Source: Motilibacter peucedani
GTDB taxonomy: Bacteria > Actinomycetota > Actinomycetes > Motilibacterales > Motilibacteraceae
Direction of reading: 5' to 3'
DNA: 64,000 nucleotides
Assembly: GCF_003634695.1 (NCBI RefSeq)
Contig: NZ_RBWV01000010.1
Coordinates: forward strand, 124,001-188,000
The notes under the pieces were generated by a model. The model worked only from the letters and a program-made list of their open reading frames with translations, ran no database searches and was not told the origin of the DNA. The translations under genes were made by a program, and so were the position numbers. Positions within the stretch are counted from its first letter, which is position 1. Every line of letters starts with the position of its first letter. Positions 40,710 through 63,341 of this stretch are shown piece after piece.

Positions 40710-41692
40710 TGAGCCGCGCCGGAGCGACACGACTGGGACAGACCGGTACGCCTGGGGCCGACGCCCCGGCGACCGGCCGGCCCGGCGCGCCGGCGGGTGG
40801 AGCCGGCGGCCGCAGGAGCGGCCGCCGGCTCACGGCCTCGGGCTTCCTCTGGATCCTGCCGGCGCTGCTGCTGTGCGTGGGGCTGATCTACTACTGCATC
40901 GGCTACACCGCCTACATCTCGACGCTCAACTGGGACGGCATCAGCCCCGGTCCCGAGCATGTCGGCACCCGCAACTACGACCGGATCTTCCACGACCCGG
41001 TGTTCTGGGGCGCGATCCGGCACACGGTGCTCTTCTTCGCCGTGACCTTCGTCGTGCAGACGGCGATCGGCATGCTGTTCGCCGTCCTCCTGCACTCGAA
41101 GATCAAGTTCGCGGTGGTCTACAAGGTCATCGTGTTCATCCCGGTGGTGCTCGCGCCGGCGATCACGGCTCCGGTGTTCCGCCGGATGTTCGCCCCTGAC
41201 GGCCAGTTCAACTGGGTGCTGGGCCACATCGGACTGAGCTCGCTGGAGCAGCCGTGGATCGGGCAGACGAGCACCGCGCTGTGGGTCGTCATGGCCATCA
41301 CGGTGTGGCAGTGGACGGGGCTGACCTTCGTCCTCTACTTCGCCGCCATGAGCCAGATCGACCCCTCGGTGCTTGAGGCGGCGCGCATGGACGGCGCCGG
41401 CAACCTGCGCACGATTACCAGCATCATCTGGCCGAGCGTGCGCGGCACGACCCTGGCGCTGGCGATCCTGAGCGCCATCGGGGTCATGAAGACCTTCGAC
41501 GTGCCCTGGCTGGTGACCTCGGCGGGCCCGAACTACGCCACCGAGTTCCTCGGCACCTACATCTACCGGATCACGATCCCGCAGGCGCACGTCGGCTACG
41601 GCGCCGCGCTCTCGGTGATCCTGCTGGTCGTCGCGCTGGTGATGGCGGTCGTCCTGCAGCTGCGCGGACGCGAGAAGAGCGGGGTGCGCTGA
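40709..41692 (+). CDS. Sugar ABC transporter permease 1 (MalF-like)
   Basis: Encodes 327 residues with six predicted membrane segments and a Gly/Arg-rich N-terminal tail. The EAA loop (L-E-A-A-R-M-D-G-A-G-N-L-R-T-I-T-S-I-I-W-P) is the ATPase-coupling motif. The ATG at 40709 overlaps the binding-protein stop by 1 nt (TGATG); a GTG one codon earlier is possible. No ATPase gene lies in the operon, so a shared MsmK-type ATPase is probably used. Confidence 0.92.
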   Translation: MSRAGATRLGQTGTPGADAPATGRPGAPAGGAGGRRSGRRLTASGFLWILPALLLCVGLIYYCIGYTAYISTLNWDGISPGPEHVGTRNYDRIFHDPVFWGAIRHTVLFFAVTFVVQTAIGMLFAVLLHSKIKFAVVYKVIVFIPVVLAPAITAPVFRRMFAPDGQFNWVLGHIGLSSLEQPWIGQTSTALWVVMAITVWQWTGLTFVLYFAAMSQIDPSVLEAARMDGAGNLRTITSIIWPSVRGTTLALAILSAIGVMKTFDVPWLVTSAGPNYATEFLGTYIYRITIPQAHVGYGAALSVILLVVALVMAVVLQLRGREKSGVR

Positions 41693-42480
41693 TGTTCGAG
41701 GTCCGTACGCTGTGGCAGAAGGTCCTGCTCCAGGTCGTCGTCACGCTCATGGTGATCCCTTTCCTGTTCCCGCTGATCGTCATGGTCCAGGGCTCCCTGG
41801 CCGGCGACGGCTGGGGCAACTACCGGGCGGTGCTGCAGGTGCCCGGCCTGGCGAAGTTCTTCGTCAACACCGTCATCATCGCGGTCTCGGTGATCGTGCT
41901 GGTCTACGCGGTGACGATGCTGGCGGCCTTCGGCTTCGCCAAGCTGCGCATCCGCGGCCGCGAGCTGTGGTTCTGGCTGCTGCTCGCCTGCCTGACCCTG
42001 CCCGAGGTGGTGCTGCTGGCTCCGCTGTTCGCGACGGCCATGCGGCTGGGCATCTACGACACGTACTGGGCGGTCGTCCTACCCCTGGCCGCGCTGCAGG
42101 TGCCCTTCGCGGTGCTGCTGACCCGCAACTTCCTCAACGGCGTCCCCGACGAGCTGTTCGAGGCCGCCCGGGTCGATGGCGCCAGCTCGGTGCGCGCCTT
42201 CTGGCACCTCGTCATACCACTCACCCGCCCGATCGCCGCCGCGGTGCTCATCTTCACCCTCATCGGCGCGTGGAACGACTACCTCTTCCCGCTGGTGTTC
42301 CTGCAGAGCCAGGACCTCCAGACCATCACGCTCGTGCCGCAGTTCTTCGTCGGCGAGTTCAGCAACGACCAGACCAAGATCCTCGCCTCGGCCGTGCTGA
42401 CGGCCATCCCCGAGATCGTGGCCTACCTCTCGCTGCAGCGGCTCTTCGAGCGCGGCCTGTCCGCCGGCGCCATCAAATGA
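41692..42480 (+). CDS. Sugar ABC transporter permease 2 (MalG-like)
   Basis: Encodes 262 residues, six membrane segments, EAA loop F-E-A-A-R-V-D-G-A-S-S-V-R-A-F-W-H-L-V-I-P. Starts at a TGATG overlap with permease 1. Together with the binding protein it forms a CUT1 importer. Confidence 0.92.
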   Translation: MFEVRTLWQKVLLQVVVTLMVIPFLFPLIVMVQGSLAGDGWGNYRAVLQVPGLAKFFVNTVIIAVSVIVLVYAVTMLAAFGFAKLRIRGRELWFWLLLACLTLPEVVLLAPLFATAMRLGIYDTYWAVVLPLAALQVPFAVLLTRNFLNGVPDELFEAARVDGASSVRAFWHLVIPLTRPIAAAVLIFTLIGAWNDYLFPLVFLQSQDLQTITLVPQFFVGEFSNDQTKILASAVLTAIPEIVAYLSLQRLFERGLSAGAIK

Positions 42481-55782: not shown

Positions 55783-55853
55783 GAGGTGCTCCCTGCCGTC
55801 GTCGTCTCCCATGAGCCTGCCCGGGAAGCAGCGCCCGACACGTCAGCCTGACG

Positions 55854-56204
55854 TCATCGCTTGGGGGCCTTGGGTGGGAGGGCGGCCGCCTGTTCGTACG
55901 CCGCGAGGACCCACGCCTCGATCGCGTCGTCGTGCGCGAGCGGGCCGGGCACTCGGACGAAGCCGGTCATGGGCCGGCCGGCGCGCGGCTCGAACTGCCG
56001 CACCGCCTCGTGGGTCTCCATCAGCTCGCTCCTGCTGGCTTCCGCCAGCCTGAGCACGAGCGAGTCCTCGAACAGCGAGGCGAACATGTGCCCGCCGACC
56101 ACGCAGCACGGGTAGCCGAACATCTGCTTGCGCACGGCGCCGGGTACGAGTGTGGCGAGCTCCTCGAACCGCTCGACCAGCTCGGGTGGTGACTTGTCCA
56201 TCAT
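55854..56204 (-). CDS. TfoX/Sxy N-terminal-domain protein
   Basis: Encodes 116 residues. The TfoX N-terminal fold is visible in E-E-L-A-T-L-V-P-G-A-V-R-K-Q-M-F-G-Y-P-C and F-A-S-L-F-E-D-S-L-V-L-R-L. In other bacteria the domain occurs in competence regulators; in actinobacteria its role is unknown. GGAGG precedes the ATG. A broken second copy with an inversion lies at 59032-59188. Confidence 0.8.
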   Translation of the reverse strand: MMDKSPPELVERFEELATLVPGAVRKQMFGYPCCVVGGHMFASLFEDSLVLRLAEASRSELMETHEAVRQFEPRAGRPMTGFVRVPGPLAHDDAIEAWVLAAYEQAAALPPKAPKR

Positions 56205-56226: not shown

Positions 56227-58098
56227 CTAGGACCTCGAGCGCAGCTTGAAGTGCGCCGTGCGGGCCGCCTTGGCCACGACCTTGTCGCCGGCGTGCTCGG
56301 CGAGCGCGGCCAGGACGTCGCCGGTCGCGGGGTGCGTCGAGCGCCACGCCGACTCGAGCAGCCGCACGCTCCCTGCGGGAGCGGCGACGAGGGAGGCCCA
56401 GTGCGGCAGTGACTGCGGTCCCCAGAGCTCGAGCACCGCGCTGAGCATCCGCATGAGGCCGTCGGCGTCGTCGACGCGAACCTCGCTCTCGGCGGCCAGG
56501 CCTGCGTCGACCCGCCACACCAGCGCATGCGGACGGAGCCGGGGATCGTCGAGAAGCGAAGCGACGGCGGGGGCGGCAGGCGTACCGATCCGGAGCAGGG
56601 CGCGGAAGGCGAGCGAGCGCTCGGCCTCTCCGGCGTCTCGCACGGCCTCGACCAACAGCGCGGCGGCATTGTCGTGGGCGCCCACCCACGCGTCGAGCTC
56701 TGCCAGCGACTCGTCGTCGGGGAGGTCAGCCGCGGCTCGGAGCAGCTCAGCGGCGGGGTGGCCGATCAACGAGCCGGCGACGCCGAAGCCCTGGCGGCGC
56801 GCCCGGTCCTGCAGGAACCAGGTGCCCAAACCGGTCAGCGTGGCGGTCGTCGTGGCAAGTCCGGTCGCGATCGGCTTGAGCCAGTAGGACTCGAGGTCGA
56901 GGTCATCGAACTCCGGCTCGATGACCAGCACGCCCATCTCCCCGAGACGCCGCAGGGCCAACAACGCCTCGTAGAGCGTGACGTCGAAGGGCTTGGAGAC
57001 TGGCCCAAGGTGTTCCACGACGGTGGTGAGGGGCGCCGTCCCGTGCTCGAGGTAGATGGTTGCCAGCATCGCGGGCACCGCTGCGTCGACCTGCGCAGCG
57101 TGCGAACCGCGGAGGTCATCGTCGTGCAGGCGCCACCGGTGGGCAGCCGGACCGATCTCGTCGAGGTAGGCGGTCACAAGCATCCGCCACGCGGCCAACG
57201 GGTCGTCGAGCGGCGCTGCGGGGGAGGCAGGCAGGAGCTTGCGCGCCCGGACCTCGACGAGCCCCAGCGCCGCGGCCAGCGCGAACGTCAGGTCGACCTC
57301 GGCCAGCTCCCTGGAGCTCTGGAAGCGGTAGGTGAACGAGCCCTGCTTCTCGGTGATGCGGTCGCTGGTCGCGAGCAGCGCGACGAGCGCCTCGCCGTCG
57401 GCCCGGCGCAGGTTGCCGGTGTCGGTGAGCGCCTTGCCGGCGCCTACCCAGTCGACGAAGGTGCGTAGGCGGCGGAGCCACACGTTGCCCGCGGCACTTG
57501 CGCGCAGCTCGGCCTCGGAGGGCACCGCGGCACCCGGCATCGGTCCGCCGCCCCACAGTGGAGGCTCGGGTGCGGTGCGGTCGAGGCCGAAGATGCGCCC
57601 GCGCTCCTCCCAGCTGCGGGCGTTGATGTTGTCGATGAAGGCTTGGAGCGCCGCTGAGTCCTGCACGTCGACGCCTTCGTCGTCGGCCTCGGCCATGAGC
57701 GACTTGGCCATACCCCAGCGGCTGCGGTCGGCCATCGCGGCCGTGAACTCGTGCAGGGAACGCTGGATGCCTGGGACGAGCCGGGGATCGAGCGAGCCGA
57801 CGATGCCGATCGCCTCGAGGTACTGCAGCAGTGCGGCGAAGCCGTCGAGGATGTCGCGCTCGTCGCCGGGCTCGATCGACACCTTGCGGGGGTAGATGTC
57901 GAGGAGGATCTGCTCGACGTCGTCGACTGACCACGTGGTGAGGTCGCCGCCCAGGTAGGTGAACTTCAGCTCGAGGATCGTCCGAGCGACCCAGCTGAAC
58001 TCGTCGCCCGCAGGTGTCTGCTCGAAGGCGTCGACGATGTCGTCGCAGGCGGCGTAGAACGCCTTCTCGTCGTCGGGACCGAAGCGCATCTGAGGCAC
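56227..58098 (-). CDS. Large hypothetical protein, unknown function
   Basis: Encodes 623 residues with no domain that I recognise. It is acidic and soluble, without signal peptide or membrane segments. The C-terminal third is Ala/Leu/Glu-rich and resembles HEAT- or ARM-like helical repeats (L-L-R-I-G-T-P-A-A-P-A-V-A-S-L-L-D-D). The middle contains a W-Y/L-rich region. It starts from a GTG at 58098 (ATG at 58089 is the alternative) and ends 22 nt before the tfoX-like gene. Confidence 0.75.
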   Translation of the reverse strand: MPQMRFGPDDEKAFYAACDDIVDAFEQTPAGDEFSWVARTILELKFTYLGGDLTTWSVDDVEQILLDIYPRKVSIEPGDERDILDGFAALLQYLEAIGIVGSLDPRLVPGIQRSLHEFTAAMADRSRWGMAKSLMAEADDEGVDVQDSAALQAFIDNINARSWEERGRIFGLDRTAPEPPLWGGGPMPGAAVPSEAELRASAAGNVWLRRLRTFVDWVGAGKALTDTGNLRRADGEALVALLATSDRITEKQGSFTYRFQSSRELAEVDLTFALAAALGLVEVRARKLLPASPAAPLDDPLAAWRMLVTAYLDEIGPAAHRWRLHDDDLRGSHAAQVDAAVPAMLATIYLEHGTAPLTTVVEHLGPVSKPFDVTLYEALLALRRLGEMGVLVIEPEFDDLDLESYWLKPIATGLATTTATLTGLGTWFLQDRARRQGFGVAGSLIGHPAAELLRAAADLPDDESLAELDAWVGAHDNAAALLVEAVRDAGEAERSLAFRALLRIGTPAAPAVASLLDDPRLRPHALVWRVDAGLAAESEVRVDDADGLMRMLSAVLELWGPQSLPHWASLVAAPAGSVRLLESAWRSTHPATGDVLAALAEHAGDKVVAKAARTAHFKLRSRS

Positions 58099-58360
58099 GC
58101 GGCGACCCTACTCGCGTGACGGCTGGCTCAGAAGGGTCGGCGCCACGGGCTGTGGACAACGGATCCGCTGCGTACGCATGGTTGGGCTTCAAGCTCGCGG
58201 CGTGCCCCTCTCCCACCGCCGATCGCTGCGAAGAGCGCGCAGTCGGCGACCTGATTGCAGTCGATGTTCACTGCCACGTCGGCGATCTCCGGACGGGGCT
58301 GTCCGGTCGACACGCCGGACCGTACGCCGGTCCGAGTCGCGCGACCGTGGACGCGCGGTG
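58099..58360. other. Gap with no gene recognised
   Basis: About 260 nt lie between the start of the large hypothetical gene and the stop of the scramblase-like gene. I see no gene, repeat or clear promoter in it. Confidence 0.6.
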
Positions 58361-58945
58361 TCAGGACCGTCTCGCCTCCATGGTGATCGCCAGCGCGAAC
58401 AGCAGCAGCCGATCGGCGTCGTCGTCCTGGACGGTCAGCTTGTACCAGTCGTCGAAGACCTTCGGCTTCTCCAGGGTGAACGCCTGGATTCCGTCGCGTT
58501 CGAAGTCGAAGTGGTACTTCACGAGGGCTCCGGCGATCTGGCCGCCAGCGCCGCCGAATCCGAGCAGCCGACGAACACGCGCCGCGCCGACGCTGCGTTC
58601 GGTGCCGATGAAGCGCCCGAGACCCGGCTGGTCGCACTGCCAGGTCGTGCGTTGCAGCGAACGCCTCACCAGGACGCCGAACGAGCCGAGCAGTCGCTCG
58701 TCACCGTCGAAGGCCTCGAAGCCGGTCAGCGCCGCGAGCCAGCCCTTGCTGCTCTCGCGGAGGCTCACCAGCTTCTCGATGCGCTGTTCGTCGCGGTAGA
58801 TCATGAGCTCGTCCGCGACTGTGAGTGCCTTGTCCCCGTACGCGAGCGGCTCGCCGGGTCGGCCTGTACCGTCGTCTGCCGCGATCCGGTACTTGCGTTT
58901 GAACCCGAGCGACACCTTGCGTACGTGGTAGGTCGTCCCCGTCAC
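58361..58945 (-). CDS. Hypothetical protein, scramblase/LURP-one-like fold
   Basis: Encodes 194 residues from a GTG. The pattern Y-H-V-R-K-V-S-L-G-F-K-R-K-Y-R-I, then I-Y-R-D-E-Q-R-I-E-K-L and G-S-F-G-V-L-V-R-R-S-L-Q-R-T-T-W, suggests the phospholipid scramblase / tubby-like barrel family, but the match is weak. No catalytic residues can be named. It precedes 262 nt without a gene. Confidence 0.55.
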   Translation of the reverse strand: MTGTTYHVRKVSLGFKRKYRIAADDGTGRPGEPLAYGDKALTVADELMIYRDEQRIEKLVSLRESSKGWLAALTGFEAFDGDERLLGSFGVLVRRSLQRTTWQCDQPGLGRFIGTERSVGAARVRRLLGFGGAGGQIAGALVKYHFDFERDGIQAFTLEKPKVFDDWYKLTVQDDDADRLLLFALAITMEARRS

Positions 58946-59031
58946 CAGCGCACCATAGCGCCGGAATGAAGTGTCGCTAGGGGCGGCGACCAGCCCGCCA
59001 CGCGAAGGCCGACCGACACGTCCGCCCAGCG

Positions 59032-59188
59032 TCAGCGATGCCTAGCAGGCTTCGGAGGGAGAGCGGGGGCCCGCTCGTACGCGCTGACCACCCACGCCTC
59101 GATGGCGTCGTCGTGCACGAGCGGCCCGGGCATCCGTACGAAGCCGGTCATCGGCCGGCGCGAGGCGGTCCGGCAGTTCGAGCCGCGC
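59032..59188 (-). pseudogene. Broken tfoX-like copy with a 27-bp inversion
   Basis: The minus strand of 59032-59160 encodes the C-terminal end of the TfoX-like protein at 55854; 30 of the first 36 aligned residues from RPMTGFVR are the same, and it keeps a stop codon. The next 27 nt (59162-59188), which should continue the gene upstream as EAVRQFEPR, are in the opposite orientation: they match 55983-56009 only after reverse complementing, with one mismatch. No further TfoX sequence follows. The remnant therefore has no start and cannot make protein. Confidence 0.8.
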
Positions 59189-59212
59189 AGAGCGGGACGG
59201 GCGGCACCTGGT

Positions 59213-60250
59213 TCAACTCGGGCGGTAGGAGAAGCGCTCCGGAGCGAGCCCCACCAGCGCCTCCAGCGCCGCCTCGGTGTTCGTTCCCCAGTTGCTGTGG
59301 AGGACCCAGGTCCGGCCGGCGTCGTGGATCGGCGACTCGACGAACCACCGCTTGCGGCTGTCGGGTGCCCGGTCGTGCGCGACCCGGAAGACTTCCCACA
59401 GCTCGTCGCCGGCGAGCTCGCCGTCAACTGCCCGGAAGCGGTCCTTGGGCAGTGCCGTGGCCAGAAGGTCGCCCGTGACGCCCGCGCCTGACAATGAATG
59501 CACGAGCGCGAGCACTGCCTTGCGCTTCGGAAGCGGGACCGTCTCGCCGTCGGGGCTGCTGATGACGTACTTCGTGTAGTCGGCGTTCGAGACTGACTGA
59601 TGCTCCCGCACCGCCGCCTCACGCTTCTTGAGCCGGATCGTGAGCTCCTCGGCCTCCGGCAGCGGGATGACCTGCTGCACGTCGAGCAGCAAACGGTCGG
59701 CGAGCCGGTAGGGCGACAGCCGCACGCACCGGATGTCCATGCCGTAGAGGTCGTTGAGCCAGAGAACCGTCGTCGTGATCTCCTGGCTGAAGTCGGCCGA
59801 GGCCAGGATGATGCGCACCTGCCGGCTGACGACCGGCTCGGCGTCGTCGGCGTCGAGCCACTCCAGCAGTCGCTCACGCGCGGTGGACCCGTCGGTGAGA
59901 CCTCGTTCGGTCCGGTAGCTGTCGAATGTCTCGACGAGGTCGTCGAAGGTCATGACCGACAACATGGCGGCGTAGCGGATGGCTTGGAGCTCCATGTGCC
60001 CGCCGTCCTCCGTGCGCTTGAGCTCGACAACCACGAGGGTCGCCGACCGGTCCACGCACAGCAGGTCGATGCGCCGCTTGGCGTCCTGGAAGCTGCCGAA
60101 CTCCTCGGCGACGACGAGCAGGTCCCGGTCGAGCACCCCGATGTTGTCGCGGACCGCGGCCTGGAGATGAGTGCGCTCCAGGATCTGCTCAGCGGCGAAC
60201 GTCGTCTTGCTGACCGCCTCGAGCTGACCGCTGGTCATGTCGAACAGCAT
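59213..60250 (-). CDS. PD-(D/E)XK nuclease-like protein (NucS/DUF91 type)
   Basis: Encodes 345 residues from the ATG at 60250, with GAAGGAG 9 nt ahead. The nuclease core is visible as D62 in R-R-I-D-L-L, then E76-x-K78 in V-V-V-E-L-K-R-T, followed by G-G-H-M-E-L-Q-A-I-R-Y-A-A, as in NucS/DUF91 endonucleases. The C-terminal half (V-P-L-P-K-R-K-A-V-L-A-L and W-V-L-H-S-N-W-G) is not assigned. NucS itself is a mismatch nuclease; this protein is a distant relative and may act in defence or repair. Confidence 0.75.
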   Translation of the reverse strand: MLFDMTSGQLEAVSKTTFAAEQILERTHLQAAVRDNIGVLDRDLLVVAEEFGSFQDAKRRIDLLCVDRSATLVVVELKRTEDGGHMELQAIRYAAMLSVMTFDDLVETFDSYRTERGLTDGSTARERLLEWLDADDAEPVVSRQVRIILASADFSQEITTTVLWLNDLYGMDIRCVRLSPYRLADRLLLDVQQVIPLPEAEELTIRLKKREAAVREHQSVSNADYTKYVISSPDGETVPLPKRKAVLALVHSLSGAGVTGDLLATALPKDRFRAVDGELAGDELWEVFRVAHDRAPDSRKRWFVESPIHDAGRTWVLHSNWGTNTEAALEALVGLAPERFSYRPS

Positions 60251-60388: not shown

Positions 60389-61771
60389 GTGCCCAACTCG
60401 GCCCGCCGCACCCAGCGCCGCCGGCCGAGCCCGCCCGCTCAGATCGTGATCCTGGTATTCGGTCTGGGGCTGGCCGTGGCGACGGTGCTGCTCCGGCTGC
60501 CGATCGCGGCGAAGGGTTCGCAGTCGGCAACGTGGCTGCAGTCGCTGTTCACGGCCGCGTCAGCGATCTTCGTCACGGGTCTGCAGGTCGACACGCCGGA
60601 CTGGACGCCGTTCGGCAACGCGGTGATCCTCGCCGGCATCCAGGTCGGCGGTTTCGGGATCATGACGCTGTCCTCGGTCCTGGCGCTGCTTGTGTCGCAC
60701 CGGCTGGGGCTGCGCAACCGGATCCTCGCGCAGACCGAGACGGCGGGCTTCGGGCTCGGCGACGTACGCCGGGTCGTCCTCGTCGTGCTCGTGACCTCGC
60801 TCGCGATCGAGACGGTCGGCGCGGTCGTGCTCTCGTTGAGGTTCGCGCTGGCCCACGACATGGGCATCGGGTCCGCGGTGTGGAACGGCGTGTTCACCTC
60901 GGTGTCGTCGTTCAACCAGGCCGGGCTCGTGCTCAGCAAGAACAGCCTGGTGCCCTACGTCGGCGACGCCTGGATCTGCCTGACGGTGTCGGTCGCGGCG
61001 ATCCTCGGCGGGTTCGGCTTCCCGGTGCTGCTGGAGATCGGCCGGGAGGGCCGCCGCGTCGGCTGGCACCCGCGCGAGATATTCGGCGGACGGCGTACGT
61101 GGACGCTGCACACCCGTATCACCGTCGCTGGCACGCTCCTCCTGCTGGTCGTCGGGTTCGTGACGCTGGCGGCGGCCGAGTGGAGCAACTCGAAGACGCT
61201 CGCGCCGCTGAGCTGGCCGCACAAGCTGCTCGCGGCGTTCTTCATGAGCGCGCAGTCGCGCTCGACCGGGTTCAACTCGGTCGACATCGGCGGCATGACG
61301 GACGAGGGGTGGCTGGCGACCGACGCGCTGATGTTCATCGGCGGGGGTAGCGCCTCGACGGCCGGCGGCATCAAGGTCACGACGTTCTTCGTGCTGCTCT
61401 TCGCGATCATCGCGGAGGCGCGCGGCGACGCGCACGTGCAGGTGTTCCGCCGCACGATCCCGGAGCAGACGCTGCGCATCGCGGTGTCGGTGGCGCTGCT
61501 CGGGGTGGCGTGGGTGTTCGCGGGTACGTTGCTCCTCCTCGCCCTGAGCAACCAGCCGCTCGACAAGGTGTTGTTCGAGTCGATCTCGGCCTTCAGCACG
61601 ACCGGTCTGAGCGCGGGCATCACGGCCGACCTGCCCAAGCCGGCGCAGGCGGTGCTCGTGCTGCTGATGTTCGTCGGACGGGTGGGTACGGTGACGACAG
61701 CGTCCGCGCTCGCTCTGCGTGAGCGGCGTCAGCTCTACCGCTACCCGGCGGAGCGGACGCTGATCGGCTGA
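60389..61771 (+). CDS. TrkH/KtrB-family potassium uptake channel subunit
   Basis: Encodes 460 residues from a GTG. Several hydrophobic segments and pore-loop pieces with T-G-L-x and S-T-G-F-N (for example A-I-F-V-T-G-L-Q-V, S-R-S-T-G-F-N-S and A-F-S-T-T-G-L-S) are the selectivity-filter regions of KtrB-type proteins. Membrane protein for K+ uptake, paired with the gating subunit just downstream. Confidence 0.92.
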   Translation: MPNSARRTQRRRPSPPAQIVILVFGLGLAVATVLLRLPIAAKGSQSATWLQSLFTAASAIFVTGLQVDTPDWTPFGNAVILAGIQVGGFGIMTLSSVLALLVSHRLGLRNRILAQTETAGFGLGDVRRVVLVVLVTSLAIETVGAVVLSLRFALAHDMGIGSAVWNGVFTSVSSFNQAGLVLSKNSLVPYVGDAWICLTVSVAAILGGFGFPVLLEIGREGRRVGWHPREIFGGRRTWTLHTRITVAGTLLLLVVGFVTLAAAEWSNSKTLAPLSWPHKLLAAFFMSAQSRSTGFNSVDIGGMTDEGWLATDALMFIGGGSASTAGGIKVTTFFVLLFAIIAEARGDAHVQVFRRTIPEQTLRIAVSVALLGVAWVFAGTLLLLALSNQPLDKVLFESISAFSTTGLSAGITADLPKPAQAVLVLLMFVGRVGTVTTASALALRERRQLYRYPAERTLIG

Positions 61772-62677: not shown

Positions 62678-63178
62678 TTATTCTTGCGTCGCTGATGCTG
62701 GTCCCGAAGGTGGCCGCAGGAGAGCGCTCACACGGAGAGCGGCCGACGCCCCGCGATCGCGATTGATCTCGCATTCCCATAGCCGCAATACGCGGTAGCC
62801 CTGTGTCGAAGCCAGTACGCTTGCACGTGCGTCGCGCTCGCGGTTCCGGCTCATCTTCTCTTCCCACAGAGTCGCGTTCGGGCCTTTGAAAGGGGTCTTC
62901 CGCCCGTGCTGCGGGCACCCGTGCCAGAAGCACCCGTCAACGAAGATTGCGACGCGGCCCGCAATGAAGATCACGTCAGGCCGGCAGCCGGGTGCCAGCC
63001 GTCGCTGTAGCCGGAAGCGGAGGCCGAGAGCATGCAGAGCGCGGCGAAGAGCGAGTTCGGGTTTCGTGTCCTGGGCTCGTCTGCCCCGCAGGTGCTGACC
63101 CTTCGGCGTCGACAGCCAGCCAGGTGGTTGCACGGCCGCGCCGGGTTCGCCCGTGAAGGACTGCCGAGGGACGCTCAC
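62678..63178 (-). CDS. vsr: Very short patch repair endonuclease (Vsr)
   Basis: Encodes 166 residues from the GTG at 63178; the frame is open further upstream without homology. Vsr signatures: K-P-E-L-A-L-R-R-A-L-H-x-L-G-x-R-F-R, R-P-D-V-I-F (catalytic Asp68), and F-V-D-G-C-F-W-H-G-C. Vsr nicks at T:G mismatches produced by deamination of 5-methylcytosine. It is divergent from the cytosine methyltransferase gene it would accompany. Confidence 0.9.
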   Translation of the reverse strand: MSVPRQSFTGEPGAAVQPPGWLSTPKGQHLRGRRAQDTKPELALRRALHALGLRFRLQRRLAPGCRPDVIFIAGRVAIFVDGCFWHGCPQHGRKTPFKGPNATLWEEKMSRNRERDARASVLASTQGYRVLRLWECEINRDRGASAALRVSALLRPPSGPASATQE

Positions 63179-63341
63179 GGAATCTCGGCCGCACGGTTCG
63201 ACATCGCTCTCCCGCTCGTCAGGACCTCGACTGCGATCGTACCGGGGCTGGCTGGTCAGGCAGCCGCCGGCGCTGAGCAACTCCAGCTCTCGTGGGGCGT
63301 GGTGCCGCGGCCCAGTCGTCCGCACGGGCTAGGTTGGTCGG

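Follow-up and report, generated by a model that had tools for sequence, protein, structure and literature searches.

How does a short piece of a gene come to lie backwards at almost its own place, beside the point where the rest of the gene breaks off? The locus that raises this question lies in a 64,000-nucleotide stretch of Motilibacter peucedani DNA, here called the window, in which the remnant of a second tfoX-like gene sits 3.2 kb from an intact copy. The original prediction described the remnant as a broken copy with a 27-bp segment cleanly inverted in place, possibly through hairpin-mediated template switching. We compared the two copies with each other, with the rest of the genome, and with homologous loci elsewhere to define what was lost, what was reversed, and which sequence of events best accounts for both.

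A truncated second copy of tfoX

The features of the two copies are as follows.

55854-56204, minus strand: intact tfoX-like gene with a TfoX_N domain, 116 aa, used as the reference for the ancestral order
55983-56010, minus strand: counterpart of the inverted segment in the intact copy, codons for EAVRQFEPR
58946-59031, minus strand: region 3' of the broken gene, which still aligns with its equivalent beside the intact copy, most clearly for about 25 bases past the stop
59032-59159, minus strand: what remains of the C-terminal part of the second tfoX-like gene, in its original orientation and with its stop
59160, no strand: junction base that fits neither part in the ungapped alignment
59161-59188, plus strand: inverted 28-bp segment, identical to the reverse complement of 55983-56010 at 27/28 positions
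59189-59212, no strand: unrelated sequence of 24 bp reaching to the next gene's stop, with the second junction at 59188/59189

The Pfam search identified TfoX_N (PF04993) in the intact copy at 42.1 bits against a cut-off of 30.1. Comparison of the window with itself aligned 55832-55989 to 59010-59166 at 77% DNA identity (E 7e-28), and 30/36 residues (83%) of the remnant matched the intact TfoX protein. The broken second copy thus proved to be as predicted, with its stop retained and its 5' half gone. It lacked codons 1-64 together with all sequence upstream of them, an absence of 194 bp within the gene by the numbering of the intact copy (from the ATG at 56204 to 56011). What is left encodes a 42-aa remnant with no Pfam match and no start codon. 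Neither protein nor Pfam searches of the genome recovered the missing half, and its relocation elsewhere was therefore rejected; the sequence beyond 59188 likewise did not match the tfoX 5' half convincingly. The second copy is a pseudogene relic, a case of ordinary pseudogene decay with an instructive scar.

The inverted segment and its junctions

A genome-wide pattern search (4.19 Mb, ≤3 mismatches) placed the 28-bp segment at only two positions, on opposite strands, and the same search with a backwards control pattern returned 0 matches. The 53 bases beside the break had a best ungapped score of 25 against the reversed gene, compared with a maximum of 16 among 2,959 random pieces of the window (mean 8.1, sd 1.3). 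The match therefore stood when alignment of the copies was weighed against chance, and a chance origin was rejected by both the pattern search and the random-piece control.

Ungapped direct homology stopped at 59159/55978, and inverted homology spanned 59161/56010 to 59188/55983. The predicted window of 27 bases with one mismatch (59162-59188) indeed matched the reverse complement at 26/27 positions and was right to within one base, but the segment is slightly larger than that, at 28 bp. The inverted piece lies ≤4 bp from its original position, which upholds inversion in place. The description of the inversion as clean did not survive. The left junction lacked a counterpart for 4 bp of the intact sequence (55979-55982) and had 1 bp (59160) extra, and the break coincides with a large deletion junction. 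Given the loss of the 5' half together with these 4 lost and 1 gained bases, the segment is a templated, reversed filler at a deletion junction, not an inversion within an otherwise preserved gene.

A CGCG palindrome at the left junction leaves 2-4 bp of ambiguity in its placement. The same CG/CGCG offers 2-4 bp of possible microhomology, which is within chance for the GC content here. On the other side, 59189-59212 was unrelated to tfoX, and the ancestral right flank of the segment has been lost. Short inverted repeats, suggested as something to look for at the break points, were absent from both copies at ≥8 bp, the threshold of the search. The segment can fold through a GCGGC/GCCGC stem, yet hairpin stability at the site was no better than that of shuffled sequence (z 0.46 and 1.02). 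The two halves of the proposed hairpin-mediated template switching thus part company: a template switch is the best mechanism, and the case for a hairpin is weak.

Ancestral orientation and timing

The segment equivalent to EAVRQFEPR stood directly before GRPM, in the same reading direction, in 42/42 homologous loci, these being the loci from other genomes that gave an alignment, none from a close relative. The motif AVRQFEPRAGRPMTG of the intact tfoX had the same order as in homologues. Collinearity across all 42 loci identifies the inverted arrangement, on comparative grounds, as the derived state and rules out the inverted order as ancestral, an outcome that the original prediction had left to be checked. 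The nearest TfoX proteins in other genomes were 43-45% identical. The four other genomes of the family yielded no syntenic locus, and the collections searched yielded no close relative that has it. Two of these four genomes kept trkH-trkA, and tfoX and the neighboring genes were absent from the stretches fetched.

Differences between the copies over the first 34 aligned codons fell at codon positions one, two, and three in the ratio 4/3/11. This third-position excess (11/18, p = 0.014) is as expected if the second tfoX was under selection and functional for part of its life, in a small sample whose pattern derives partly from the intact copy, presumably still under selection. The single mismatch in the 28 bp is also a synonymous third-position change, GTG/GTC (Val), and may predate the inversion. 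Together, the third-position excess and the synonymous change within the inverted segment suggest that most of the divergence predates the break. The segment matched at 27/28 positions compared with ~82% in the rest of the remnant, a hint of copying in trans from the intact gene, but the adjacent direct stretch at 59141-59159 was equally conserved (18/19). Copying in trans is not needed, and the position of the segment fits copying in cis.

A likely doubled unit of tfoX and trkH

The self-comparison returned only two strong paralogous DNA pairs in the window, tfoX (77%) and trkH (80.6%, 58210-58332 vs 60491-60613). The features belonging to the second pair and to its surroundings are these.

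58210-58332, plus strand: defunct piece of a second trkH that corresponds to intact-gene residues 35-75 and contains two indels and an in-frame TGA
59213-60250, minus strand: gene for a 345-aa protein, adjoining the tfoX remnant
60389-61771, plus strand: intact trkH (cation transport)

In both sets, tfoX on the minus strand lies to the left of trkH on the plus strand. Two paralog pairs of similar divergence and the same order suggest that the locus is a doubled tfoX...trkH unit and that loss was reciprocal, each gene having been lost from one unit: trkH died in the left copy and tfoX in the right. The spacers are unlike: tfoX and trkH are separated by a 623-aa gene in the left set and by the sporadic 345-aa gene in the right. 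The doubling may have come about through tandem duplication or through acquisition of a diverged copy; the arrangement was found in no other genome of the family. The edges of the trkH relic, which sits in the gap between two minus-strand genes, carried no reversed fillers of ≥10 bp.

The 345-aa gene occurred in 21/394 genomes of the class and in no other genome of the family. A homologue with 57-58% identity in one genome of another family aligned to ≤8 residues from the end. The C-terminus is essentially complete by this comparison, and truncation of the gene by the event that broke tfoX was rejected. Its GC content of 0.675 was only slightly low and its GC3 of 0.908 was near the values of its neighbors. 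Against the NucS C-terminal domain (PF01939) the protein scored 18.2 bits, a weak match below the threshold, and it possibly represents an uncharacterized nuclease-like family.

Other features of the window were recorded alongside. The 623-aa protein between the intact tfoX and the trkH fragment (56227-58098) had no Pfam match. A 194-aa protein (58361-58945) also had none and had one weak homologue in the family (27%); its GC content was slightly lower than that of the window (0.667 vs 0.721). A gene with a Vsr-type mismatch endonuclease domain (68.1 bits) lies at 62678-63325, and a 61-bp direct repeat pair, 77% identical and ~275 bp apart, lies at 41605-41665 and 41880-41939.

Proposed mechanism

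We consider decay of the duplicate by a single template-switch (MMBIR-like) event to be the best explanation of the locus, and on balance a probable one. A unit of tfoX (minus strand) and trkH (plus strand) would have been doubled in the lineage, either in tandem or because a diverged copy was acquired, and the second tfoX would have been kept under selection for some time before deletion of its first 64 codons and the upstream region destroyed it. Synthesis proceeding toward the tfoX 5' end would have switched to the opposite strand 28 nt ahead, at CG-rich microhomology, and copied those 28 nt backwards. A second switch would then have carried synthesis to a remote site, the sequence that now forms the 3' side of the 345-aa gene, leaving a remnant and a reversed filler with no function.

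That this was a single event, that it proceeded by template switching, and that it followed this order is what we infer. With the inverted piece ≤4 bp from its origin, two independent events would need a coincidence, and one copying event with two switches explains at once why the piece is reversed, why it lies where it does, and why the 5' half is missing. Inverted double template switches have been proposed for near-reciprocal inversions with small indels in starving E. coli, and the junctions of those inversions carry microhomology (PMC3161906). Microinversions of 17-33 nt in primates have been attributed to template switching or MMBIR (PMC8755829), and short in-place inversions are reported in rRNA loops, Actinobacteria included (PMC8794818).

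Three points count against this reading: the break points have no flanking inverted repeats of ≥8 bp, unlike the primate cases, where inverted repeats of 3 nt or more flanked every microinversion (PMC8755829); the genome encodes Ku; and the collections searched held no close relative that would preserve the sequence from before the event. The Ku homologue scored 171 bits, so end joining may have been available. In a narrower version that we regard as rather unlikely, one template-switch event during capture of the 345-aa gene between a doubled tfoX and trkH would have both deleted the tfoX start and joined the new DNA. If that version is correct, the locus preserves unusually well a natural trace of MMBIR-like repair in a high-GC bacterium that encodes Ku.

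Alternative explanations

Two separate events could also have produced the locus, with an in-place inversion of ~28-32 bp in a still intact second tfoX and a later, unrelated deletion of the 5' half ending at the edge of the segment. In-place microinversions of such size are documented in primates (PMC8755829), and trimming during the later deletion could explain the 4 missing bases. However, the edge of the deletion must then coincide with that of the inversion within ~4 bp, and the intact copy is without flanking inverted repeats of ≥8 bp. We rate this history as improbable.

Ku-dependent end joining stands only a shade lower. Here, two breaks would have freed a short piece, which was joined back in the opposite orientation while the remainder of the 5' half was lost, perhaps with insertion of foreign DNA carrying the 345-aa gene. 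The encoded Ku homologue speaks for this, the 1-bp gain and 4-bp loss at the junction fit, and the sporadic occurrence of the 345-aa gene within the class and its absence elsewhere in the family are as expected of acquired DNA. Against this, the GC content of that gene is only slightly low and its GC3 is close to that of its neighbors, which leaves a foreign insertion conjectural. The model also needs two breaks 28 bp apart as well as a third, and survival of a 28-bp fragment.

It is more doubtful still that the second copy was never a full gene, with a rearrangement having copied just the 3' part of the intact tfoX together with the reversed 28-bp piece. The failure to find a second 5' half anywhere in the genome is what this predicts, but the differences between the copies are concentrated at third positions, homology runs past the stop, and there is a matching trkH relic, all of which point to a longer, once functional doubled unit.

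An assembly artifact at the junction is very improbable, as both junctions are well within a 710-kb contig, one of 17 in an assembly rated 100% complete, and the flipped segment, one base off the sole other genomic copy, cannot be explained simply as a read from that copy put in the wrong place. Intragenic invertons occur in bacteria, but a programmed inversion by a site-specific recombinase is rejected as the least credible origin of all, since bounding inverted repeats of ≥8 bp are absent from both copies, the first half of the gene is missing, and a recombinase would have to loop a very short segment of 28 bp. Invertons in general are described in PMC11892184.

Comparison with known systems

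The scar is most likely a fresh instance of an already known type of DNA copying error. It resembles the template-switch mutations of bacteria, yeast, and primates (quasipalindrome, inter-strand, and MMBIR) in having a short reversed segment near its original position, possible microhomology, and small junction indels (PMC3161906, PMC8604942, PMC8755829, PMC8794818). It differs from them in that the second switch goes far and deletes the tfoX 5' half, and in having neither flanking inverted repeats of ≥8 bp nor a parent sequence.

With the 17-33-nt microinversions of primates it shares the size class and a near-exact reverse complement of the ancestral segment (PMC8755829). Those microinversions are complete and in place, with both flanks intact and inverted repeats beside them, whereas only one flank remains here.

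Among pseudogenized duplicates of bacteria the locus is typical in its intact and truncated copies 3 kb apart, its third-position excess, and its lack of a start, and it differs only by the reversed filler at the break and the reciprocal trkH relic alongside. One case leaves our knowledge of mutation unchanged. It is a readable example of the short templated inversions that may sit at bacterial pseudogene breakpoints, where ordinary alignment would treat them as unrelated sequence, and it invites a survey of pseudogene junctions for reversed fillers in genomes that encode Ku and in genomes that do not.
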